From Rhodanobacter sp. PCA2 (lineage in GTDB: Bacteria > Pseudomonadota > Gammaproteobacteria > Xanthomonadales > Rhodanobacteraceae), in NCBI RefSeq assembly GCF_013620825.1, contig NZ_NJIC01000009.1, positions 743 through 64,742 on the forward strand: a stretch of 64,000 nucleotides of DNA, written 5' to 3'. Shown here piece after piece: positions 8,329 to 39,884 of this stretch. Position 1 is the stretch's first letter. Each line of letters starts with the position of its first letter. The position numbers were made by a program, and so were the translations under genes. The notes below the pieces were generated by a model. The model saw nothing but the letters and a program-made list of their open reading frames with translations, was not told where the DNA came from and did no database searches.

Positions 8329-8721
8329 ATGGAGTTCGTCCTCTACATCCTCGAGTGCGCGGACGGCAGTTTCTACATCGGCCATACGGACAATCTGGAC
8401 AAGCGGATGGAGCAGCACAAGCAGGGCAGTAGCTGTGCGTACACCGCCAGCCGCCGCCCGGTGAAACTGATCCATGCGGAAGGATTTGAAACGCGCTTCG
8501 AAGCCCTGACCATGGAGCGGAAGCTCAAAGGCTGGAGCCGCGCGAAGAAGTTGGCGTACATCGCCGGAGACTGGGGCGCGGTAAGTGCCCTGGCCAAGGG
8601 CAGACACAGGCACGAGCTGGCGCGCGAGGGCGCTTCGACTCCGCTCGCTGCGCGAGCTACGCTCAGCGCGAACGGTGATGTCGCCGGCGCGCGTCAACCC
8701 GATCAGGACAGCGACGCATGA
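8329..8721 (+). CDS. GIY-YIG nuclease superfamily protein (UPF0213-like)
   Basis: This 130-aa protein has the GIY-YIG core at the N terminus: [16 protein letters not shown] gives the two signature strands, [13 protein letters not shown] the helix with the conserved Arg, and [13 protein letters not shown] the metal-binding Glu helix. A CAGGAGG ribosome-binding site (8317-8323) supports the start. The family domain ends near residue 95; the remaining tail is translated from a REP-like element (8633-8675) and runs into the hmgA start (ATGA overlap at 8718). REP elements flank the gene on both sides, so it looks inserted in the tyrosine operon. Its role is unknown; DNA cleavage is inferred from the fold. 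Confidence 0.85.
8633..8675 (+). repeat. Third REP-like element, inside the 3' end of the GIY-YIG gene
   Basis: It has the same conserved flanks as the upstream pair (CTTCGACTCCG at the left, CTACGCTCAG then CGAACGG at the right) around a different stem, GCTCGC/GCGAGC. It is in the same orientation as the element at 8215. It is read in frame by the nuclease gene and supplies residues [18 protein letters not shown]. Confidence 0.75.
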
Positions 8722-10019
8722 ACTACCAATCCGGCTTCGCCAACGAATTTGCCACCGAAGCGATCCCCGGCGCGTTGCCGGACGGGCAGAACTCGCCGCA
8801 GAGCGCGCCGCTGGGCCTGTATGCCGAGCAGCTGTCGGGCACCGCGTTCACCGCGCCGCGCCACAGCAACCGGCGCAGCTGGCTGTACCGCATCCGCCCG
8901 GCGGCGATGCACCAGCCGTTCGAGGCGATGGCGCCGAGTGCGTTCCACAACCGTTTCGGCGAAGTGCCGACCAGCCCCGACCAGTTGCGCTGGGATCCGC
9001 TGCCGCTGCCGGCCGCGCCCACCGACTTCGTCGACGGCATCGTCACCATGGCCGGCAATGGCGGCGCGGGGGAGCAGTCGGGCATCGGCATCCACGTGTA
9101 TGCGGCGAACCGGTCGATGCAGGGCCGCTACTTCTACGACGCCGACGGCGAGCTGCTGATACTGCCGCAGCAGGGCCGCCTGCGCATCGCCACCGAGCTT
9201 GGCGTGATCGGGCTGGAGCCGCAGGAGATCGCGGTGATCCCGCGCGGCGTGCGCTTCCGCGTGGAGTTGCTGGACGGGACCGCGCGCGGCTACATCGCGG
9301 AGAACTTCGGCGCGCTGCTGCGCCTGCCGGACCTCGGTCCGATCGGCAGCAACGGCCTGGCCAATCCGCGCGACTTCCTCACCCCGGTGGCGGCGTACGA
9401 GGACATCGAGGGCGAGTTCGAGCTGGTGGCGAAGTTCCAGGGTGCGCTGTGGCGCGCGAAGATCGGCCATTCGCCGCTGGACGTGGTGGCATGGCACGGC
9501 AACTACGCGCCGTACAAGTACGACCTGCGCCGCTTCAACACCATAGGCTCGATCAGCTACGACCACCCGGACCCCAGCATCTTCCTGGTGCTGCATTCGC
9601 CCAGCGACACCGCGGGTGTGAGCAACATGGATTTCGCGATCTTCCCGCCGCGCTGGCTGGTGGCGCAGCATACGTTCCGGCCGCCGTGGTTCCACCGCAA
9701 CATCGCCAGCGAGTTCATGGGCCTGATCACCGGCGCCTACGACGCCAAGGCCGAAGGCTTCGTGCCGGGCGGCGCCTCGCTGCACAACTGCATGACCGGC
9801 CACGGCCCGGACGCGGCGACCTACGAGAAGGCCTCCACCCGCGACCTGTCGCAGCCGGACGTGATCGCCGACACCATGGCCTTCATGTTCGAGGCGCGCC
9901 GCGTGCTCCATCCGACCCGGCAGGCGCTGGAGTCGAAGGAGCTGCAGCGCAACTACCACGAATGCTGGCAGGGGCTGCAGAAGCATTTCACCGGCAACAA
10001 GGAGCCTGCCGGACTTTGA
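8718..10019 (+). CDS. hmgA: Homogentisate 1,2-dioxygenase
   Basis: This 433-aa iron enzyme opens the homogentisate ring to maleylacetoacetate and has the normal bacterial length. It starts with the family-typical [14 protein letters not shown]. The C-terminal cupin holds the metal-ligand region around [16 protein letters not shown] and the [12 protein letters not shown] motif. The ATG overlaps the stop of the nuclease gene by four bases, so its translation may be coupled to that gene. It acts directly on the hpd product. Confidence 0.96.
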
Positions 10020-28768: not shown

Positions 28769-29773
28769 TCAGAACGTGCGCTGCACCGAGTAGTCCGCCA
28801 GCGTCGCCAGCGCGTCGCGATACGGCGAGGCGGGCAGCGCGGCCAGCGCCTCGTGCGCGGCGTCGGCATGCGCCACGGCGCGCTCGCGGGTGCGCTCCAG
28901 CGCGCCGGAGTCGCGGATCGCGGCGACGATGCGGTCCAGCGAATCCAGCCCGCCGTGCTCGATCGCGTGGCGCAGCGACGCGACCTGTTCCGGCGTGGCC
29001 TTCTGCAGCGCGTAGATCAGCGGCAGCGTGGGCTTGCCCTCGGCGAGGTCGTCGCCGATGTTCTTGCCCAGGGTATCGGCGTCGCTGGTGTAGTCCAGCA
29101 GGTCGTCGGCGATCTGGAACGCGTAGCCAAGCTCCATGCCGTAGCGGCGCAGCGCGGCCACCTGTTCCGCGGGCAGGCCGCCCAGCAGGCCGCCGAGTTC
29201 GGTGGCGGCGGCGAACAGCACCGCGGTCTTGCGCTCGATCACCGCGAGGTAGGCGGCCTCGTCCACGTCGGCGTTGCCGATGTTGAGCAGTTGCAGCACC
29301 TCGCCCTCGGCGATGGTGTTGGTGGTGTCGGCGAGTATGCGCATCACGCGCATGTCGTCCAGCTCCACCATCAGCTGGAACGAGCGCGAGTAGAGGAAGT
29401 CGCCCACCAGCACGCTGGCGGCGTTGCCCCACAGCGCGTTGGCGGTCTGGCGGCCGCGGCGCAGGCCGGACTCGTCCACCACGTCGTCGTGCAGCAGGGT
29501 GGAGGTGTGGATGAATTCGATCACCGCGGCCAGCTTGACGTGCTGCTCGCCGTGGTAGCCCGCGGCGCGCGCGGCCAGCGCGTGCAGCATCGGGCGCAGC
29601 CGTTTGCCGCCGCCGGCGATGATGTGGTCGGCGATCTGGTTGATCAGCACCACGTCCGAGGCCAGCCGCGCCCGTATCAGCATGTCGATGCGCCGCATGT
29701 CGGCATCGGCGAGCGCGCGCACGGCGGCGAAGTCGGCGGGGCGGTTGGCGTCGGCGGCGGGGATCGAGTTCAT
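28769..29773 (-). CDS. ispB: Octaprenyl/polyprenyl diphosphate synthase
   Basis: This 334-aa all-helical trans-prenyltransferase makes the long isoprenoid chain of ubiquinone. The first Asp-rich motif is LLHDDVVDES (about residue 91) and the second is IADDLLDYTSD (about 218), both complete. GGGKRLRPML and the GDFLYSRSFQ helix also match. The exact chain length cannot be read from sequence. A perfect TATAAT box lies 26 bases before the start on the minus strand. The kdp locus is divergent from it. Confidence 0.95.
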   Translation of the reverse strand: MNSIPAADANRPADFAAVRALADADMRRIDMLIRARLASDVVLINQIADHIIAGGGKRLRPMLHALAARAAGYHGEQHVKLAAVIEFIHTSTLLHDDVVDESGLRRGRQTANALWGNAASVLVGDFLYSRSFQLMVELDDMRVMRILADTTNTIAEGEVLQLLNIGNADVDEAAYLAVIERKTAVLFAAATELGGLLGGLPAEQVAALRRYGMELGYAFQIADDLLDYTSDADTLGKNIGDDLAEGKPTLPLIYALQKATPEQVASLRHAIEHGGLDSLDRIVAAIRDSGALERTRERAVAHADAAHEALAALPASPYRDALATLADYSVQRTF

Positions 29774-29798
29774 GGGCGCTCACGGTCCGGGTCGCATG

Positions 29799-29804
29799 AT
29801 TATA
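29799..29804 (-). promoter_or_regulatory. -10 box (TATAAT) of ispB
   Basis: A consensus TATAAT is read on the minus strand, 26 bases upstream of the ispB ATG. No good -35 is seen at 16-18 bases, so the promoter is probably activator-assisted or driven mainly by the -10. Confidence 0.6.
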
Positions 29805-30005
29805 GGGGCAGCGGACGCGGACCACCGCACGGGAATGTGCGTCCGTTCCCGCTCGACCCGGGGCGCGGGGTCGCACCTGGCCCGGGTGCAGGGTCCCGCC
29901 GGACTGAAAATTTACGCGTTCTATATGCGCCGGCCCCGGATCGCTACCCCTTTCATATACGGCACTTCCTACAGTGCGCGCCGTCGTTTCCACGAGTCGG
30001 CGCCC

Positions 30006-30098
30006 ATGGACCTGGTCTACCTGCTGTTCCTGTTCGTGCTGAGCGCGGCGGTGCTCGGTTTCCTGCTGGTCTGCGACCGGCTGGGGCCGCGCAAGTGA
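30006..30098 (+). CDS. Short membrane peptide upstream of kdpF
   Basis: This 30-aa ORF (MDLVYLLFLFVLSAAVLGFL then LVCDRLGPRK) is a single transmembrane helix followed by a short basic tail. Similar tiny ORFs with a C-terminal CDRL or CERL ending are found just ahead of kdpF in several bacteria. It starts 144 bases before kdpF on the same strand. It has no strong ribosome-binding site, but its position and composition argue for a real peptide, perhaps an accessory subunit or leader of the Kdp transporter. Confidence 0.6.
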   Translation: MDLVYLLFLFVLSAAVLGFLLVCDRLGPRK

Positions 30099-30149
30099 GT
30101 CGCGCCCGCCGTCCCGACCTTGTCCGCATCGCCTGACGGGAGTGTCCGC

Positions 30150-30242
30150 ATGCATTTCGCCTACGCCATCGCCGCGGTGATCGCGGTGCTGCTGATCGCC
30201 TACCTGTGCGTGGCCCTGCTCAAGCCGGAGTGGTTCGAATGA
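30150..30242 (+). CDS. kdpF: KdpF, small subunit of the K+-transporting ATPase
   Basis: This 30-aa single-helix peptide ([20 protein letters not shown] then [10 protein letters not shown]) has the KdpF length and the C-terminal xLLKPEWF pattern. KdpF stabilises the KdpABC complex in the inner membrane. A GGGAG motif lies eight bases upstream. Its stop overlaps the kdpA ATG (ATGA), which supports the assignment. Such a short gene is easily missed. Confidence 0.88.
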
Positions 30243-32059
30243 CCGCCAACGACTTCATCCAGATCGGCGTGTTCCTGGCCGTGCTGTTGCTGCTGCTCAA
30301 GCCGATGGGCAGCTACATGAGCCTGGTGTTCGCCGAAACACCGAACCGCGTGACGCGCCTCGGCGGCGGCATCGAGCGCCTCTTGTACCGCCTCGGCGGA
30401 GTCCGCAGCGACGAGGACATGGGCTGGAAGCGCTATGCGCTGGCCATGCTGCTGTTCAATCTGTTCGGCCTGCTGCTGGTGTACCTGCTGCAGCGCGTGC
30501 AGCAGTGGCTGCCGCTGAACCCGCAGCACTTCGGCAACGTGTCGCCGGACTCGGCGATGAACACCGCGATCAGCTTCGCCACCAACACCAACTGGCAGGG
30601 CTACAGCGGCGAAACCACGATGAGCTACCTGACCCAGATGCTGGGGCTGGCGGTGCAGAACTTCCTCTCCGCGGCGACCGGCATCGCGGTGCTGGTGGCG
30701 GTGGTGCGCGGCTTCGTGCGGCGCGGCGCGGGCGCGCTCGGCAATTTCTGGGTCGACCTGACCCGTGCCACGCTCTACGTGCTGCTGCCGATCTCGCTGG
30801 TGATCGCGTTGCTGCTGGTTTCGCAGGGCGTGGTGCAGAACTTCAAGCCCTACGTCGACGTGCCGGTGGTGCAGACCACCACCTACGCCAACCCGGTGAC
30901 CGATGCGGCCGGCAATCCCGTCAAGGATGCTTCCGGCAATCCCGAGACCAGGCCGGCGCAGCTCACCACGCAGACCCTGCCGATGGGGCCGGCGGCCTCG
31001 CAGGTGGCGATCAAGATGCTCGGCACCAACGGCGGCGGTTTCTTCAACGCGAACTCGGCGCATCCCTACGAGAACCCGACGCCGTTTTCCAACTTCATCG
31101 AGATGCTGGCGATCTTCCTGATTCCCGGCGGCCTGTGCGTGATGTTCGGCCAGATGGTCGGCGACCGCCGCCAGGGCTGGGCGATCCTCGCCACGATGCT
31201 GGTGATCTTCGTCCCGCTGACGGTGGGGTTGGTCGCCGCCGAGCAGGCCGGCAACCCGGCGCTGCACAGCCTGGTGGCGCAGCAGGCGGTGGACCAGCAT
31301 GCCTCCGCGTTGCAGGCCGGCGGCAACATGGAAGGCAAGGAAACGCGCTTCGGCGTCGCCGCCAGCGGCCTGTTCGCCGCGATCACCACGGCCGCCTCCT
31401 GCGGCGCGGTGAACGCGATGCACGATTCGCTGACGCCGCTGGGCGGCCTGATCCCGATGTGGCTGATGCAGCTGGGCGAGGTGATCTTCGGCGGCGTCGG
31501 TTCGGGCCTGTACGGCATGCTGGCCTTCGCCGTGGTGGCGGTGTTCATCGCCGGCCTGATGGTGGGCCGCACGCCGGAATACCTCGGCAAGAAGATCGAG
31601 GCCTTCGAGATGAAGATGGCCAGCCTCGCGGTGCTGCTGCCCTGCGCGCTGGTGGTGATCTGCACGGCGATCGCGGTGCTGCTGCCGGCGGGCGTGGCGG
31701 GCATCGCCAACCCCGGCGCACACGGCTTCAGCGAGATCCTCTACGCGGTCAGCTCGGCCTCGAACAACAACGGCAGCGCGTTCGGCGGCCTCTCCGCGAA
31801 CACGCCGTTCTGGAACGTGCTGCTGGGCGTGTGCATGTTCCTCGCGCGCTTCCCGCTGGCGATCGCGATGCTGGCGATGGCCGGCGCGCTGGCGGCCAAG
31901 CGGCACGTGCCGGAATCCGCCGGCACGCTGCCCACGCACACGCCGCTGTTCGTCGCGCTGCTGGCCTGCGTGGTGATCGTGGTCGGCGCGCTGACCTTTC
32001 TTCCGGCGCTGGCGCTTGGCCCGATCGCCGAATACCTGATGTCCGCAACGGGGCACTGA
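30239..32059 (+). CDS. kdpA: KdpA, potassium channel-like subunit
   Basis: This 606-aa inner-membrane subunit binds and conducts K+ in the high-affinity Kdp pump. It has about ten hydrophobic helices. Selectivity-loop-like segments include [49 protein letters not shown] and [14 protein letters not shown], the four repeated P-loop regions of the family. A periplasmic loop near residues 205-245 is Thr/Pro/Asn-rich and longer than in E. coli KdpA (557 aa). It is followed three bases later by kdpB. Confidence 0.97.
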
Positions 32060-32062
32060 ACC

Positions 32063-34135
32063 ATGACTTCGACGACTCATGCAGTTCGCAGTTTCGACCG
32101 CGAACTGGTCCTCAACGCCGTCGCGGACTCGTTCCGCAAATTGTCGCCGCGGCTGCAGTTCAGGAACCCGGTGATGTTCGTGGTGTTCGTGTGCAGCGTG
32201 CTGACCACGCTGCTGTGGGTGCAGGCGCTGGCCGGGCACGGCGAGGCGCCCACCGGCTTCATCTTCTGGGTCGCCGCGTGGCTGTGGTTCACCCTGCTGT
32301 TCGCGAACTTCGCCGAGGCGCTGGCGGAAGGGCGCGGCAAGGCGCAGGCCGCCGCGCTGCGCGGTTCGCGCAAGGACGTGATCGCGAAGAAGCTGGCCGG
32401 CCCCGCGCGCGATGCGGCGATCACCTTCGTGCCGTCCAGCGAGCTGCGCAACGGGCACCACGTGCTGGTGGAGGCGGGCGAGCAGGTTCCCGGCGACGGC
32501 GAGGTGGTGGTCGGCGCGGCCAGCGTGGACGAGAGCGCGATCACCGGCGAATCCGCGCCGGTGATCCGCGAATCCGGCGGCGACCGCAGCGCGGTCACCG
32601 GCGGCACCCGCGTGCTGTCGGACTGGCTGGTGGTGCGCATCACCAGCAATCCGGGCGAGAGCTTCCTGGACCGCATGATCGCGATGGTGGAAGGCGCCGC
32701 GCGTCGCAAGACGCCGAACGAGATCGCGCTGACCATCCTGCTGGCGAAGTTCACCCTGATCTTCCTGCTCGCCTGCGCCACCCTGCTGCCGTATTCGATC
32801 TACAGCGTGCAGGCCGCGGGCGCCGGCCACCCGATCACGCTGACCGTGCTGGTGGCCCTGCTGGTCTGCCTGATCCCCACCACCATCGGCGCGCTGCTGT
32901 CGGCCATCGGCATCGCCGGCATGGACCGGATGATCCGCGCCAACGTGATCGCCACTTCCGGCCGCGCGGTGGAGGCGGCGGGCGACGTCGACGTGCTGCT
33001 GCTCGACAAGACCGGCACGATCACGCTCGGCAACCGCCAGGCGGTGGCCTTCCATTCGGCGCCGTGCGTGGAGGAAAAGGCGCTCGCCGATGCCGCCCAG
33101 CTCGCCTCGCTGGCCGACGAAACGCCCGAGGGCCGCAGCGTGGTGGTGCTGGCCAAGGAGCGCTTCGGCCTGCGCGAGCGCCAGCTGGCGGAGGGACATG
33201 CGGCGTTCGTGCCGTTCACCGCGCAGACCCGCATGAGCGGTGTGGACGTGGACGGCCGCTCGATCCGCAAGGGCGCGCTCGACGCGGTGGAGAAGCACCT
33301 GGCATCGATCGGCGGCCAGCTGCCGCCGCGCGTGAAGCAGATGGCCGAGGAGGTCGCGCGCCGCGGCGCCACGCCGCTGATCGTGGCCGAAGGTTTCGCC
33401 GCGCTGGGCGTGATCGAGCTGAAGGACATCGTCAAGGGCGGCATCAAGGAGCGTTTCGCCGAGATGCGCCGGATGGGCATCAAGACCATCATGATCACCG
33501 GCGACAATCCGCTCACGGCCGCGGCCATCGCCGCCGAGGCCGGCGTCGACGACTTCCTCGCCGAGGCCACGCCCGAAGCCAAGCTCAAGCTGATCCGCAG
33601 CATCCAGGCCGAGAACCGCCTGGTGGCGATGTGCGGCGACGGCACCAACGACGCGCCGGCGCTGGCGCAGGCCGACGTGGCGGTGGCGATGAACACCGGC
33701 ACCCAGGCGGCCAAGGAAGCCGGCAACATGGTCGACCTGGATTCCAATCCGACCAAGCTGATCGAGGTGGTGGAGATCGGCAAGCAGATGCTGATCACGC
33801 GCGGTTCGCTGACCACCTTCTCGATCGCCAACGACATCGCCAAGTACTTCGCGATCATCCCGGCCGCGTTCGCCACCACCTATCCCGCGCTGAACGCGCT
33901 CAACGTGATGCAGCTGGCCACGCCGCAGAGCGCGATCCTGTCGGCGGTGATCTTCAACGCGCTGATCATCGTCTTCCTGATTCCGCTGGCGCTGAAAGGC
34001 GTGAAGTACCGCGCGCTGGGCGCCGGCGCGCTGCTGCGGCGCAACCTGCTGGTGTACGGCCTCGGCGGCATCGTCGTGCCGTTCGTCGGCATCAAGCTCA
34101 TCGACATGCTGCTGGTCCTGTGCGGACTGGCCTGA
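32063..34135 (+). CDS. kdpB: KdpB, P-type ATPase catalytic subunit
   Basis: This 690-aa P-type ATPase energises K+ uptake. The phosphorylated Asp315 is in [13 protein letters not shown]. The actuator motif TGES is in [10 protein letters not shown], the hinge in [14 protein letters not shown], and [17 protein letters not shown] closes the P domain. Membrane helices cluster at about 35-85, 220-280 and 580-685. All key residues are present. A porin-like gene follows instead of kdpC. Confidence 0.98.
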
Positions 34136-34155
34136 GCGGGGTTTCCAACGTGCGG

Positions 34156-34344
34156 ATGCTCAAGCCCTCGCTTTCGCTACCCGACGACGCGCATCCGGAC
34201 ACGGAACTGCGCGTGTCGACCGACGACACCGGATGCGACGTGGCGATCGCGATGCCGCCGGCGCGTGCTGGCATGCCCCGTGCAACGCCGGAAGAGCCAA
34301 CGGGCGCCGAAGCCTGTGTTCTCGGCGGTTACGCGGGCATCTGA
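34156..34344 (+). other. Uncertain 62-codon open frame between kdpB and the porin gene
   Basis: The 235-base gap between kdpB and the porin gene contains an ATG-initiated frame (34156-34344) with no recognisable domain, an acidic start and no strong ribosome-binding site. It may be noncoding leader for the porin gene. I see no terminator hairpin with a T run here, so transcription probably continues from kdpB. Confidence 0.3.
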
Positions 34345-34370
34345 CCACCACGAACTCACCAGAGGGCACC

Positions 34371-35195
34371 ATGCTCAACCTACGAATGCACCATTTCGTT
34401 GCAACGCTGGGGCTGGTCGCGATATTCGGTGCGACGCCGGCACGCGCAGACGACGCACCGGCCACCACGGTCACCGGCAACCTGGAACTCACCTCCGACT
34501 ACGTGTTCCGCGGGCTCACCCAGAGCTGGGGCAAACCCGCGGTGCAGGGCGGCGTGGACCTCGCCACCGCCAGCGGCTTTGCCGTCGGCACCTGGATGTC
34601 CAGCATCAGCGACCGCAGCTTTCCGGGCGGTTCGGTGGAGTGGGATGTCTACGCCAGCTACGGAAAGCAGATCAACGACGACTGGTCGTGGCGTGCGGGC
34701 CTCTACGGCTATATCTATCCCGGCGCCAATCTCGACCATGCCGGCCTGCCGTCGCGCTCGCTCAACACCGGCGAGGCGAACGTGGCGCTGAGCTGGAAGC
34801 TGTGGACGCTGAAATACAACTACGCGCTCACCGATTACTTCGGGGCGGATCGCGAGCAGGGCTACCAGGGCAACTCAAAGGGCACCAGCTACCTGATGCT
34901 GGAAGGCGCGTGGCCGCTGGATCCGCAGTGGAGCCTCACCCTGCACCTGGGCTACACGCACTACAGCACCCGATTGACCGTGCCGAACGCCGATGGCGCG
35001 CGCAATCCCGACTACGCCGATATCGGCGTGGGCGCCAAGTACACGATCAATCCGCACTGGACCGTGCTGGGCGTCGTCACCCGCGCCACCAACGGCCGTT
35101 TCTACCGCCACACCGCCAGCTTCCAGAACGCCGCCGACACGCTGGACGTGGGCGGCACGCGCGGCTTCGTGATGTTGCAAGGGAGTTTCCAGTGA
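34371..35195 (+). CDS. TorF-family putative porin inside the kdp operon
   Basis: This 274-aa outer-membrane protein has a signal peptide ([20 protein letters not shown], cleavage after ARA near residue 26) and then the family opening [31 protein letters not shown]. Alternating aromatic beta strands run to a C-terminal Phe-Gln (LQGSFQ). TorF (conserved hypothetical 2001) proteins are about this length. AGAGGG precedes the ATG. Its stop overlaps the kdpC ATG (TGATG), so it is firmly inside the operon. A role as outer-membrane path for K+ is inferred from position only. Confidence 0.88.
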
Positions 35196-35779
35196 TGCGC
35201 ACGTTCGCACTTGTCCGTCCTGCACTGAGCCTGTTGATCCTGCTGACCGTGGTGACCGGGGTGGCCTATCCGCTCGCGGTCACCGGGCTGGCCCAGGCCC
35301 TGTTCCCCCGCCAGGCGAACGGCAGTCTGGTGGAGCGTGCCGGCAAGCCGGTCGGTTCCAGCCTGATCGGGCAGGACTTCAGCGACGCGAAATACTTCTG
35401 GGCGCGACCCTCGGCTACCGCGCCGATGCCCGACAACGGAACCGCCTCCGGCGGTTCCAACCTTGGTCCTTCCAATCCCGCGCTGACGGATGCGGCGCGA
35501 CAGCGCATCGCCGCCTTGCACGCCGCCGATCCGGGCAACACGCAGCCGGTGCCGGTGGATCTGGTCAGCGCTTCCGGCAGCGGGCTCGATCCGGAAATTT
35601 CGCCCGCCGCGGCGGACTACCAGCTCGATCGCGTGGCGCGCAGCCGCGGGCTGTCGCCGCAGCGCGTGCGCGAACTGATCGCGGCGAACACCACGGGCCG
35701 CCAGTTCGGCCTGCTGGGCGAGCCCAGGGTCAACGTGCTGCTGCTGAACCTGGCGCTGGACCGGATAGTCGCGCATTGA
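35195..35779 (+). CDS. kdpC: KdpC, K+-transporting ATPase subunit C
   Basis: This 194-aa subunit has one N-terminal membrane helix ([26 protein letters not shown]) and a periplasmic domain with [41 protein letters not shown] and [12 protein letters not shown], all standard KdpC blocks. It links KdpA and KdpB and raises K+ affinity. It is coupled to the upstream porin gene by a one-base TGATG overlap. kdpD follows after 87 bases. Confidence 0.97.
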
Positions 35780-35866
35780 ACCGGTTGCGCGCCCTCGTGC
35801 GACGCGTTCCCCCGGCCAGGCGAAACGGCGATGATGCGCCCATGAAAACCCCGGCCACTCCCTGAC

Positions 35867-38527
35867 ATGGATTCCCGTCAGGCCCGCGCGAACGCCTTGC
35901 TGGAGACGGCCACGGACGAGCGCCGCCTGAAGGTCTTCCTCGGCGCCGCGCCGGGCGTGGGCAAGACCTGCGCCATGCTCTCCGCCGCCCGCGAACTGCG
36001 TCGGCAGGGCGTCGATGTGGTGGTAGGCCTGGTGGAAACCCACGGCCGCGCGGAAACCGAGGCTCTGCTGGAAGGCCTGGAACTGCTGCCGCGGCGGCGG
36101 GTGAACCTGCACGGTCGTGAGTTCGGGGAGTTCGATCTCGACGCCGCGCTGGCGCGCAAGCCGGCGGTGCTGCTGGTGGACGAGCTGGCGCACACCAATC
36201 TCCCCGGCGGCCGCCACGAGCGGCGCTGGCAGGATATCGCCGAGCTGCTCGACGCCGGCATCGAGGTCTACACCACGCTCAACGTGCAGCACCTGGAAAG
36301 CCTCAACGACCAGGTGCGCCGCATCACCGGCGTCACCGTGCGCGAACGCGTGCCCGACGCCTTCCTCGACCGCGCGCGCGACATCGTGCTGGTGGACCTG
36401 CCGCCGCGCGAGCTGATCCAGCGGCTGCGGCAGGGCAAGGTCTACGTGCCGGAAACCGCGGCGGCGGCGCTGGATGCGTTCTTCTCGCCCACCAACCTCG
36501 CCGCGTTGCGCGAGCTGTCGGTGGACACCGTGGCCGCCCACGTGGAGAGCGACCTGCGCGGCAGCATGCTGGCGCGCGGCGTGGCGATGCCGGTGCGCCG
36601 CCGCGTGCTCGCGGCGATCGACGGCCACGCGCAGAGCGAATACCTGGTGCGCGTGGCGCGGCGCATCGCCGAACGCCGAGGCGTGCCCTGGAGCGTGGCC
36701 TTCGTGGACACCGGCGCGGGCATGGACGACGCGCGACGCGAACGGGTGGACGCCGCGATGCGGCTGGCGCGGCGCCTCGGCGGCGACGCGGTGATGCTGC
36801 GCGGCCACGCCGTGGCCGACGAGTTGCTGGCGTACACCGAGCGCGAAGGGGCCGGGCAGATCATCCTCGGCCGCACCCGCGAGCGCCTGTTCGCCCGCAT
36901 GGTGGGTCGTTCGCTCACCCAGCAGCTGCTGCGCCGCGGCGCGCACCTGGAACTCACCATCGTCGCCACGCCGGCCGAGCGCGCAGCCTCGCGCCGGCGC
37001 CTGCGGCTGAGGCCGCCGGGCGGCTTCGGGCGGCGCGGCGAATACATCTATGCCAGCCTGGCCACACTGGTCGCGCTGGCGCTCGCCTTCGTCGGGCAGC
37101 GCTACCTGTCGGTGGCCAGTCTCTCGCTGATCTTCCTCACCGCCGTGCTGGTGGTGGCGGTGCGCACGCGGATGGCGGTGGCCGTCTATACGGCCATACT
37201 CAGTTTCGTCGCCTACAACTTCTTCTTCGCGCCGCCGGTGTACTCGCTGGAAATCTCCAGCCCCGACGACGTGCTGGCCGTCTGCCTGTTCCTGCTTGCC
37301 GCCCTGGTGTGCAGCCGGCTCGCCACGCGGCTGGCGCAGCAGGTGGAGTCGTTGCGCGCCACGCACGTGCAGGCGCGCGCGCTGCTGCTGCTGGGCCAGC
37401 GCCTGGCCGCGAGCACCGATGCCGCCGGCATCCGCACGGTGGGCGCCGCGGCGCTCGCTCAGGCGTTGCCGTGCGAGGCGGCGCTGCTGGCGCGCGATGC
37501 GGCTGGCGTCCTGCAGCCGATGGCGTCGTCGCCGCACGACCTGCATCTTCAGCCGCAGGACCTGGCCGCCGCCGACTGGTGCGAACGCCATGCCACGCCG
37601 GCGGGCCGCTACACCGACACCTTGAACGCCGCGCCCTGCTGGCTGCTGCCGCTGGGCGGCGAGGAGCAGCGGCTCGGCGTGGCCGCACTGCGCTTTCCGG
37701 GCGAGGCGGGCGAGCCCGATCCGGATCGCCGCAGCCTCGCGCTCGCGATGGTGCAGGACATCGGCCAGGCGCTGGCCCGCGCCCGCCTCGCCGAGGAACT
37801 GGAAGGTGCGCGCGTGCAGGGCGAAACCGAACGCCTGCGCAGCGCCTTGCTTTCCTCGGTATCGCACGACCTGCGCTCGCCGCTGTCCTCGATGATCGGC
37901 GCCGCCGGCACCCTGATCGACTACGAGGACAAGCTGCCGCCGGCCGAGCGCCGCGAACTGCTGGAGGCGATCCTCGGCGAAGGCCAGCGGCTGGACCGCT
38001 ACATCCAGAACCTGCTGGACATGACGCGGCTCGGCCACGGCACGCTCAAGCTCAACCGCGACTGGGTGGACGTGGCCGAGATCGTGGCCGCCGCGGTCAC
38101 GCGCCTGCGCAAGCTGTTTCCCGCCATGCGCGTGGACACCGACCTGCCGCGCGACACCGTGCTGCTCTATGTGCATCCCGCGCTGATCGAGCAGGCGCTG
38201 TTCAACATCCTGGAGAACGCCGCGCGCTTCTCGCCGCCGGAACAGCCGGTGACGGTCGCCGCCCGCGTCGAGGGCGAACGCCTGCTGCTGGAAGTGGGCG
38301 ACCGCGGCCCCGGCATACCCGAGGAGGAGCGTGCGCGCATCTTCGACATGTTCTATTCGGTGTCGCGCGGCGATCGCGCTGCGCAGGGCACGGGGCTGGG
38401 GCTGGCGATCTGCCGCGGCATGATCGGCGCGCACGGCGGCAGCGTGGAGGCCTTGCCGCGCGAAGGCGGCGGCACCACCATCCGCATCACCCTGTCCCTG
38501 CCCGAAGCGCCCGCCAGCCCCGCATGA
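35867..38527 (+). CDS. kdpD: KdpD, potassium/osmotic sensor histidine kinase
   Basis: This 886-aa membrane sensor has an N-terminal KdpD domain with Walker [10 protein letters not shown] (residues about 26-34) and [10 protein letters not shown], a USP domain (about 245-365), four clustered transmembrane helices (about 395-485), a GAF-like region, the phosphoacceptor [16 protein letters not shown] (His at about 667) and an ATPase domain ending with [18 protein letters not shown]. It controls KdpE by K+ and ionic strength. The stop overlaps kdpE (ATGA). Confidence 0.97.
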
Positions 38528-39216
38528 ACACTTCTCCCCGCGTGCTGGTGATCGACGACGAGGCGCAGATCCGCCGCTTCCTCGACATCGGCCTGCGCGC
38601 CGAGGGCTACCGGGTGCTGCTCGCGGCCACCGCCGCCGAAGGCCTCGCGCAGGCCGCCACCGGCAACCCGGACCTGGTGATCCTCGACCTCGGCCTGCCC
38701 GACCGCGACGGCCACGAGGTGCTGGCCGAACTCCGCCAGTGGAGTCGCGTGCCGGTGCTGATGCTGTCGGTGCGCGACGCCGAGACCGAGAAGGTGCGCG
38801 CGCTGGACGCCGGCGCCAACGACTACGTGACCAAGCCCTTCGGCATCCAGGAACTGATGGCGCGCCTGCGCGCGCTGCTGCGCCAGCGCCCGGCCGGCGA
38901 ACCCGCGGCGCCGCCGCGCTGGGACGATGGCCGGCTCAGCGTGGATCTCGGCCGCCGCGAAGTGCGGCTGGACGGTGCCGAACTCGCGCTGACCCGCAAG
39001 GAATACGCCGTGCTCGCGATGCTGCTGCGCCACGCCGGCCGCGTGGTCACCCAGCCGCAACTGTTGCGCGAGATCTGGGGCCCGAGCCACGTGGCCGACA
39101 GCCAGTACCTGCGCATCGTGGTCGGCAAGCTGCGCCAGAAGCTGGGCGACGACCCGGCCCAGCCGCGCTGGCTGAAGACCGAGCCGGGCGTGGGCTACCG
39201 CTTTCTCGTGGAATGA
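38524..39216 (+). CDS. kdpE: KdpE, response regulator
   Basis: This 230-aa OmpR-type regulator has a receiver domain with DDE at 11-13, phosphoacceptor Asp55 in [13 protein letters not shown] and the Lys of TKPF. The winged-helix DNA-binding domain includes [26 protein letters not shown] and ends with [12 protein letters not shown]. Once phosphorylated by KdpD it activates kdpFABC. It is the last gene of the locus. The kdp promoter region upstream of 30006 has no obvious direct repeat that I can name as its site. Confidence 0.96.
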
Positions 39217-39383
39217 ACCCCGCTGTCGCTGAACGCGTACGGCGACCCATGGCCGGGACCCGCGGCCCGCCGGGTTGCCGGTGCCTGTACAGGGACGGGG
39301 GCGCGGGTATGATAACCAGCCCGAAACACCACTCCAGCCGTAACCACTCCCGAACGTACGGCTGGCTCAACGAGGACATTCCC

Positions 39384-39884
39384 ATGGCACGTGGCGTCAA
39401 CAAGGTCATCCTGGTCGGCAACCTGGGCAACGATCCGGAGGTGCGCTACACCACCAGCGGTTCCGCGATCGCGACGCTGAGCGTGGCCACGTCGGAGAGC
39501 TGGACCGACAAGCAGAGCGGCGAGCGCCAGGAACGCACCGAGTGGCACCGCGTGAAGATGTTCGGCAAGCTGGCGGAGATCGCCGGCGAATACCTGAAGA
39601 AGGGCCGGCAGGTCTACATCGAAGGTTCGCTGCGCACCGACAAGTACACCGACAAGAACGGCGTGGAGAAGTACTCCACCGACATCGTCGCCAGCGACAT
39701 GCAGATGCTGGGCGGCCCCGGCGGCGAGGGCGGCGGTTCGGGCGGCGGCTTCCAGCGCGAGCGCCCGCAGGGCGGCCAGCGCTCCCAGGGCGGCGGCTAC
39801 GGCAACCAGTCCCGCGGCGGCGCGCCTGCGCCGGCTGCACCCGCCAGCAGCGGCGGTTTCGAGGACGACGACATCCCGTTCTAG
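39384..39884 (+). CDS. ssb: Single-stranded DNA-binding protein
   Basis: This 166-aa tetrameric SSB protects single-stranded DNA in replication and repair. The OB fold spans residues 1-110 ([22 protein letters not shown] at the start, [21 protein letters not shown] in the middle). A Gly/Gln/Ala-rich linker follows, with the acidic tip DDDIPF that recruits partner proteins. A TATGAT -10-like box lies at 39308-39313. A strong terminator follows. Confidence 0.97.

Follow-up and report, generated by a model that had tools for sequence, protein, structure and literature searches.

Why should a gene for an outer-membrane porin lie inside the operon of a high-affinity potassium pump? The question is raised by the 64,000-nucleotide stretch of Rhodanobacter DNA analysed here (the window), in which a TorF-type porin gene stands between kdpB and kdpC. 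The Kdp pump has a micromolar affinity for K+, and to our knowledge work on K+ starvation has centred on the inner membrane. An extra gene in the same slot is known from Anabaena, where kdpG lies between kdpB and kdpC. In the open-licence PMC literature, as represented by titles and the openings of abstracts, we found no porin in a kdp operon, and in one description of the kdp genes of acid-soil methanotrophs the word 'porin' is absent (PMC6119699).

The kdp operon of the window

As in known kdpFABC-kdpDE systems, kdpF, A, B, C, D and E are neighbours on one strand. The structural genes and kdpD follow the canonical order, and curated models identify them (KdpF, KdpA, KdpB and KdpC by Pfam and/or NCBIfam, KdpD by Pfam). 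Unlike those systems, the window has a small gene and the porin gene between kdpB and kdpC. The features are as follows.

29911..29927, + strand: KdpE-like tandem box TTTACG-N5-TATATG (11-bp direct repeat), putative operon operator (motif match)
30006..30098, + strand: small hydrophobic ORF of 30 aa (MDLVYLLFLF...), 5' of kdpF (conserved in the alignment of 35 upstream regions)
30150..30242, + strand: kdpF (Pfam PF09604, NCBIfam TIGR02115)
30239..32059, + strand: kdpA (Pfam PF03814, E 4e-245; start codon picked by eye from the ORF)
32063..34135, + strand: kdpB (NCBIfam TIGR01497, 1066 bits)
34150..34344, + strand: small gene of 64 aa with a GTG start and a C-terminal LGGYAGI (frame conservation in relatives)
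34371..35195, + strand: TorF/Gcw_chp outer-membrane porin (predicted), 274 aa (Pfam, NCBIfam, AlphaFold model)
35195..35779, + strand: kdpC, its start overlapping the porin stop as TGATG (Pfam PF02669, E 1.2e-76)
35867..38527, + strand: kdpD sensor kinase (Pfam KdpD PF02702, E 5e-92)
38524..39216, + strand: kdpE response regulator (ORF, start by eye; position and similarity)

Used as a tblastn query, the window's kdpE gave matches beside kdpD in most of the order's loci. For the 30-aa ORF at 30006-30098, neither Pfam nor NCBIfam gave a match at E 1.

The original prediction had placed a TorF-type porin gene between kdpB and kdpC, and the ORF, Pfam and NCBIfam confirm both its coordinates and its family. 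By curated score the protein is a member of the TorF/Gcw_chp family, matching Pfam Gcw_chp (PF09694) at E 1.9e-38 (133.2 bits, cut-off 24) and NCBIfam TIGR02001, 'TorF family putative porin', at E 1.2e-35 (123.3 bits, cut-off 47.15). These scores, with the AlphaFold barrel, exclude a misread family or frame for 34371-35195. The family profiles and the predicted barrel also bear out the view that a gene for a predicted outer-membrane barrel lies within the operon; the protein, with a hydrophobic N-terminus and F one residue before the C-terminus, probably resides in that membrane. A second TorF gene occurs in the same genome on another contig.

At the junction, which reads ...CAGTGATGCGC, the porin TGA and the kdpC ATG have one base in common, as originally noted. 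From this overlap it had been argued that neither transcription nor translation of the porin can be independent of the pump. The argument is not supported, because a TGATG overlap can make translation of kdpC depend on the porin, not that of the porin on the pump, and because the porin and the kdpC start, estimated elsewhere from alignment to the window, do not overlap in 15 of the 16 other loci with TorF in this slot. There, the estimated distance from porin end to kdpC start is 4-9 bases in 11 and 58-118 in four, with an overlap in one (L050). A single transcript is better argued from two other observations: the kdpB-porin spacer of 235 bp is not empty, holding the conserved 64-aa gene at 34150-34344, and the only KdpE-like box in the genome lies 5' of kdpF.

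Scans for other signals gave little. Rfam recognised no known RNA element in 29500-39500 (three matches fell under their gathering scores, best E 0.013), and the kdpB-porin spacer contains no strong RNA fold (z -1.2). A consensus scan of 29700-35900 returned two terminator-like sites, both outside the spacer, and no promoter-like sites, a result of little weight since the promoter expected before kdpF was missed too.

Two unrelated barrels alternate at kdp loci of the order

The original prediction proposed a survey of kdp loci in Xanthomonadales, which we ran on 250 genomes of the order. Of these, 79 gave a KdpC match, the window's genome included, and the 78 other loci were retrieved. Counting barrels on the kdp strand, TorF or a BBP2 porin occurs at the kdp locus in 53 of these 79 genomes, a TorF remnant in one and neither in 25. 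This recurrence across the order rules out an insertion unique to the strain.

On a quick KdpB tree (79 rows, SH-aLRT support, 29 of 75 inner branches weak), the window's operon falls in a kdp clade of 39 rows with support 97. The kdpB-kdpC slot of these 39 operons holds TorF in 17, the window among them, BBP2 in 21 and a TorF remnant in one. The remnant (L069/L224, genome G230) is a TorF C-terminus matching at E 2.6e-7, and BBP2 is present on another contig of that genome. In the other clade, also of 39 rows, kdpB adjoins kdpC, and the barrel gene lies elsewhere: TorF directly 5' of kdpA in 10, BBP2 5' of kdpA in three (L091, L094, L096), and BBP2 in the order kdpC-BBP2-kdpD in one (L086). 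L304, from the window's own genus, reads kdpA-kdpC-kdpB-BBP2-kdpD.

BBP2 proteins thus occupy the same kdp slots as TorF and differ in belonging to another Pfam family. Those of the slot are ≈460-570 aa long, and all 25 of the set examined (the 21 slot proteins, the three 5' of kdpA and that of L304) match Pfam BBP2 (PF07642), as all 17 slot TorF proteins match Gcw_chp. Cross-family matches at E 0.001 are absent, with none of the 25 BBP2 proteins matching PF09694 and none of the 17 TorF proteins matching PF07642.

TorF and BBP2 slot holders are interleaved on the KdpB tree. The TorF label requires nine changes and the BBP2 label eight, with at least four changes of each forced by branches with support 95 or more. 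Because of these forced changes, we conclude that, measured against KdpB, the two families have repeatedly taken each other's place in one slot. The interchange extends to other positions: within a clade of five, the gene 5' of kdpA is TorF in two (L098, L099) and BBP2 in three (L091, L094, L096), and in kdpA-kdpC-kdpB operons the gene after kdpB is TorF (L214, L287) or BBP2 (L304). Exchange of genes between operons could be one route. What evolution keeps is a barrel at this place, not one family.

Some barrels lie outside these counts. L083 (genome G054) carries at 8418-9284 (- strand), 146 bp 5' of kdpA, a barrel of a third family, PF13557, possibly another replacement; porins other than TorF and BBP2 were covered by a rough screen for proteins with a signal and a C-terminal aromatic residue or H. 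In 11 genomes of genus g31, TorF and kdpC share a contig but are 14-23 kb apart and on opposite strands, with TorF outside the operon (for example, 300037-300600 versus kdpC at 314565-315104 on contig 1 of G131).

A KdpE-like box upstream of the operon

Alignment of upstream regions brought out an 11-bp direct repeat, TTTACG-N5-TATACG. With at most two mismatches, it occurs 193-275 bases 5' of kdpF in 33 of the 34 related loci where kdpF matches over its full length; the exception is L055. Searched at up to one mismatch, TTTACGNNNNNTATAYG has a single match in the 3.9-Mb genome, 5' of kdpF. KdpE of E. coli binds a direct-repeat site, and the spacing of the repeat is usual for OmpR-type regulators; the window box presumably resembles the E. 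coli site. Position, spacing and this resemblance suggest that the box is a KdpE site.

With a weight matrix built from 34 sites, a single site of the 64-kb window reaches a score of 10. As background, 487,754 bp of loci without kdpABC (L151-L191) contain two sites of 14 or more, one of which (L183) lies beside kdpDE. In the 10 operons of the order that begin with TorF, the box precedes the porin start in nine (the exception is L038; in L092, the furthest of three possible porin starts would precede the box), and none of the ten has a box of score 10 or more between porin and kdpA. Two further TorF-first operons are divided, L302 of the phylum sample agreeing (score 15.2) and L263 not. Three BBP2-first operons have a box of 14.0 ≈460 bases before BBP2 and another, of 21.2, between BBP2 and kdpA. 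Further boxes stand 5' of the first kdp gene in L296 (31.2), L304 (25.0), L214 (19.6), L195 (18.0) and L264 (17.0).

The box does not cover every porin-bearing lineage, since L287, L227, L243, L245 and L266 have no site of score 3 or more 5' of the first kdp gene; the last four share the arrangement kdpC-TorF-kdpD. It is likewise missing or weak in the porin-bearing L038 and L263 (TorF-first) and L055 (BBP2 slot).

One genome separates the barrel from the pump. G120 has a kdp locus without TorF or BBP2, and its BBP2 gene lies unlinked to kdp on contig 6 (L309, 71-1444, - strand), preceded by a match to the small LGGYAGI gene described below (C-terminal part only, E 6.4e-5). A box of score 23.0 stands at 1745-1767, 5' of this pair in their orientation. 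Set against the background of the L151-L191 loci, with only two sites of 14 or more, we count it in favour of common regulation; it sits between divergent genes and could instead serve the other one, a pirin-like gene.

A probable porin of the potassium-starvation regulon

The reading that we consider probable is that the window gene encodes a 12-stranded porin of the K+-starvation (KdpDE) regulon that would supply K+ across the outer membrane. It draws on the recurrence of the arrangement, the swapping of barrels and the placement of the box, and on the 12-strand fold and the acidic charge of kdp-linked TorF proteins described below. Low K+ is established to activate KdpD and KdpE, and scarcity of K+ would do so here. 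KdpE would then bind the box 5' of kdpF and drive transcription, as its sequence suggests; pump, small protein and porin would be made together from one transcript, as the structure of the operon suggests; and the porin would raise the K+ permeability of the outer membrane, so that diffusion would no longer limit the micromolar-affinity pump. Because one barrel replaces another to which it is unrelated, a generic gain in permeability is favoured over a specific contact or ligand. Co-transcription and co-induction of porin and pump are thus predicted from the sequence, and K+ is the presumed solute.

A parallel exists in the phosphate regulon, whose porins PhoE and OprP are switched on together with the high-affinity phosphate importer by the starvation regulator. 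The kdp case would be alike in that one starvation regulator serves a porin and an inner-membrane importer, the presumed common site being the KdpE-like box, recognised by sequence. It is unlike in that the kdp porin lies inside the pump operon, the families are others and the presumed solute is K+. The original prediction, an outer-membrane route matched to the pump, is partly supported overall: wide conservation, in-place replacement of the barrel and the KdpE-like box favour it, and the argument from the overlap falls away.

Porin fold and charge

AlphaFold, given the window TorF protein and 62 relatives, predicted a 12-stranded barrel (pLDDT 91.7). In a second look by structural alignment, the best matches were KdgM (Z 16.6; 2.2 Å over 165 residues) and NanC (Z 16.5; 3.0 Å over 193 residues), followed by other barrels at Z 11-15.8, with VhGalP among the nearest folds; in Foldseek the top ranks went to OmpG and NanC, and query TM-scores were 0.41-0.53. 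The window porin thus shares the 12-stranded barrel fold of KdgM and NanC but not their sequence family, being 9-17% identical to them and without a KdgM-family Pfam match. Its only Pfam matches at E up to 0.01 are Gcw_chp, OMP_b-brl and Porin_OmpG_1_2, and a profile search of solved structures gave no match at E 10. The modelled fold would indicate a barrel of such a size, not its cargo.

KdgM and NanC carry acidic sugars, as does VhGalP. The strand residues of the window model are balanced in charge, with seven acidic and six basic side chains, and given this balance and these nearest folds, selectivity for cations is not evident. Over the barrel region, net charge has a median of -7 in slot TorF proteins, -6 at other linked positions, -4 in named slot loci and -1 in unlinked ones (77 kdp-linked TorF rows versus 24 of 42 unlinked named loci), a difference confounded by kinship and including some slot and named-slot rows from the same species. 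Net charge is negative in 71 of the 77 kdp-linked TorF rows and zero or positive in six; it is negative in all 29 kdp-linked BBP2 proteins examined, a set without unlinked BBP2 for comparison.

The nearest folds and the balanced strands agree with the main rival reading, in which a porin of the same regulon lets in something other than K+ (a counter-anion, an organic acid or an osmolyte, for example) or remodels the envelope at low ionic strength or pH. So do two published points: a Shewanella torF is given as an outer membrane porin of the trimethylamine N-oxide (TMAO) reductase system (PMC5955497), and Kdp is treated as part of acid tolerance in acidophiles (PMC9062700). Searches of open-licence PMC articles yielded no tie between TorF and K+. 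Against another cargo stand the two unrelated barrels in one slot, which favour generic permeability over a specific ligand, and the prevailing negative charge of kdp-linked TorF and BBP2 proteins. We judge this rival unlikely, if the most serious, and retain K+ entry as the preferred role.

A small conserved gene beside the porin

The spacer between kdpB and the porin aligns as a reading frame among Rhodanobacteraceae loci. In its product, 64 aa in the window and 60-83 in relatives, the start is conserved, the middle varies and the C-terminus is nearly invariant: all 37 sequences have LGGYA-x-I, and 36 have LGGYAGI, with D replacing G in L048. In each of the five pairs compared, differences are most frequent at third codon positions; the excess is clear in four pairs and slight for the window versus L112 (12, 10, 13). 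Protein change is fast, as 14-26 codons carry a residue change and 8-19 a silent one in these pairs. The 64-aa protein has no Pfam match at E 1 and one NCBIfam match, at E 0.08 and far under its cut-off; its AlphaFold model is of low confidence (pLDDT 56).

The gene is present in nine of 17 TorF slots (the window and eight of the other 16) and in 20 of 21 BBP2 slots, 18 of them recognised by profile and the other two, L060 and L065, from the reading frame. It also stands 5' of BBP2 in L304 and in the kdpC-kdpD interval of L048. Across the order, it was found in 32 of 250 genomes, and 31 of its 33 matches lie at kdp loci. Besides the G120 match, a second copy lies away from kdp in L310 (contig 3 of G130), a 3.2-kb locus with no box of score 5 or more. 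This is a previously undescribed gene that travels with kdp-linked porins in the window's family.

A small conserved companion would suit a barrel that acts as a structural partner, scaffolding or sensing, for example by touching the sensor or the part of KdpC in the periplasm, and serving not mainly as a pore. So would the junction: in 12 of the 16 other TorF-slot loci, the porin either ends at most 10 bases from the start estimated for kdpC or overlaps that start. This is quite improbable in our view, given that two unrelated folds fill the role from several positions (before kdpA, between kdpB and kdpC, after kdpC and after kdpB) and that many Kdp loci have neither barrel. A pore for K+ is still the better account.

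Distribution beyond the order

Named genomes were scanned with a TorF alignment, and the best 80 of 147 confirmed loci were read. Among these 80, TorF lies directly before kdpC in 36 (two of them cut, with kdpB outside), after kdpC in one (L149) and before kdpDE in one (L183), and in 42 there is no kdpA, B or C within up to 6 kb on each side. Two loci, L138 and L143, have TorF proteins more than 50% identical and no kdp genes in the flanking DNA examined. The kdp-linked loci come from Rhodanobacter, Dyella, Frateuria, Luteibacter, Rudaea, Fulvimonas, Dokdonella and metagenome-assembled genomes with broader names.

The class sample comprised 303 genomes, with KdpC in 36, of which 33 were new and 32 had their loci read; in the remaining one, G491, KdpC falls below the cut-off, and the genome was searched for both families. 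Either barrel occurs at kdp in four of the 33: TorF in G471 (kdpA-kdpC-kdpB-TorF-kdpD) and BBP2 in G288 and G481 (kdpC-BBP2-kdpD) and G526 (kdpC-BBP2). The other 29 have neither. The phylum sample comprised 329 genomes, with KdpC in 104, of which 94 were new; 80 were searched for TorF and BBP2, and 79 loci were retrieved. TorF was found at kdp in 10 of the 80, BBP2 in none and neither in 70. TorF follows kdpC in G704, G627 (twice), G715, G585, G616, G691 and G661, lies 5' of kdpA in G824 and 5' of a kdpB-kdpA-kdpC operon in G773, and follows kdpB in G730. An uncounted TorF gene in G755 is on the opposite strand, 1.25 kb past kdpE.

In the class and phylum loci, kdpB and kdpC are mostly adjacent, with exceptions in operons of other gene order (L214, L219, L287, L302), in L207, where the kdpB match is broken, and in a few gaps of 200-300 bases. 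These four operons and L304 have the orders A-C-B or B-A-C. The closest plasmid BBP2 matches, in two Bacteroidota records, have no kdp genes in their 8-kb flanks; TorF matches on plasmids were also found.

The kdp-porin arrangement is thus standard within the kdp clade of the window, and outside that clade only a minority of loci show it. Since both barrels are missing from 25 of 79 kdp loci in the order, 29 of 33 in the class and 70 of 80 in the phylum, the porin is not needed for Kdp generally.

Phylum-wide, 43 genomes with both KdpC and TorF hold 77 TorF copies, 12 of them within 6 kb of kdpC, one of these 12 being the uncounted opposite-strand gene of G755. Eleven of the 77 lie on the kdp strand beside the operon versus 0.21 expected by random placement (Poisson P for 11 or more ≈7e-16, a value made too small by ignoring kinship). 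By hand count these 11 represent six families, for which P for six or more is ≈1e-7. That porins entered kdp operons by chance or gene transfer, with no functional tie, might seem to suit the many kdp loci without a porin and the mere remnant in the L069/L224 slot of G230, but it is disfavoured by these counts, by the repeated in-place swaps on the KdpB tree and by the box 5' of the unlinked BBP2 copy of G120, and we regard it as very improbable.

Significance

The reading as a K+-starvation porin may extend beyond the window. We suggest tentatively, and at somewhat less than an even chance, that high-affinity K+ uptake in many Gram-negative bacteria has a third layer, a K+ entry porin in the KdpDE regulon whose function is kept as the barrel is swapped between the unrelated TorF and BBP2 families, joined in the window's family by the LGGYAGI protein. 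If so, the outer membrane can limit the supply of K+ at micromolar levels, and bacteria would have answered this limit repeatedly by letting KdpDE control a porin. The two barrel families, labelled in Pfam only as of unknown function or as putative porins, would gain a testable role, and the presence of two unrelated barrels in one slot would offer a natural experiment on what a starvation porin requires; the 64-aa LGGYAGI gene is a separate, testable puzzle. Together, our findings suggest that in the soil bacterium of the window and in many of its relatives, potassium starvation opens a dedicated door in the outer membrane.
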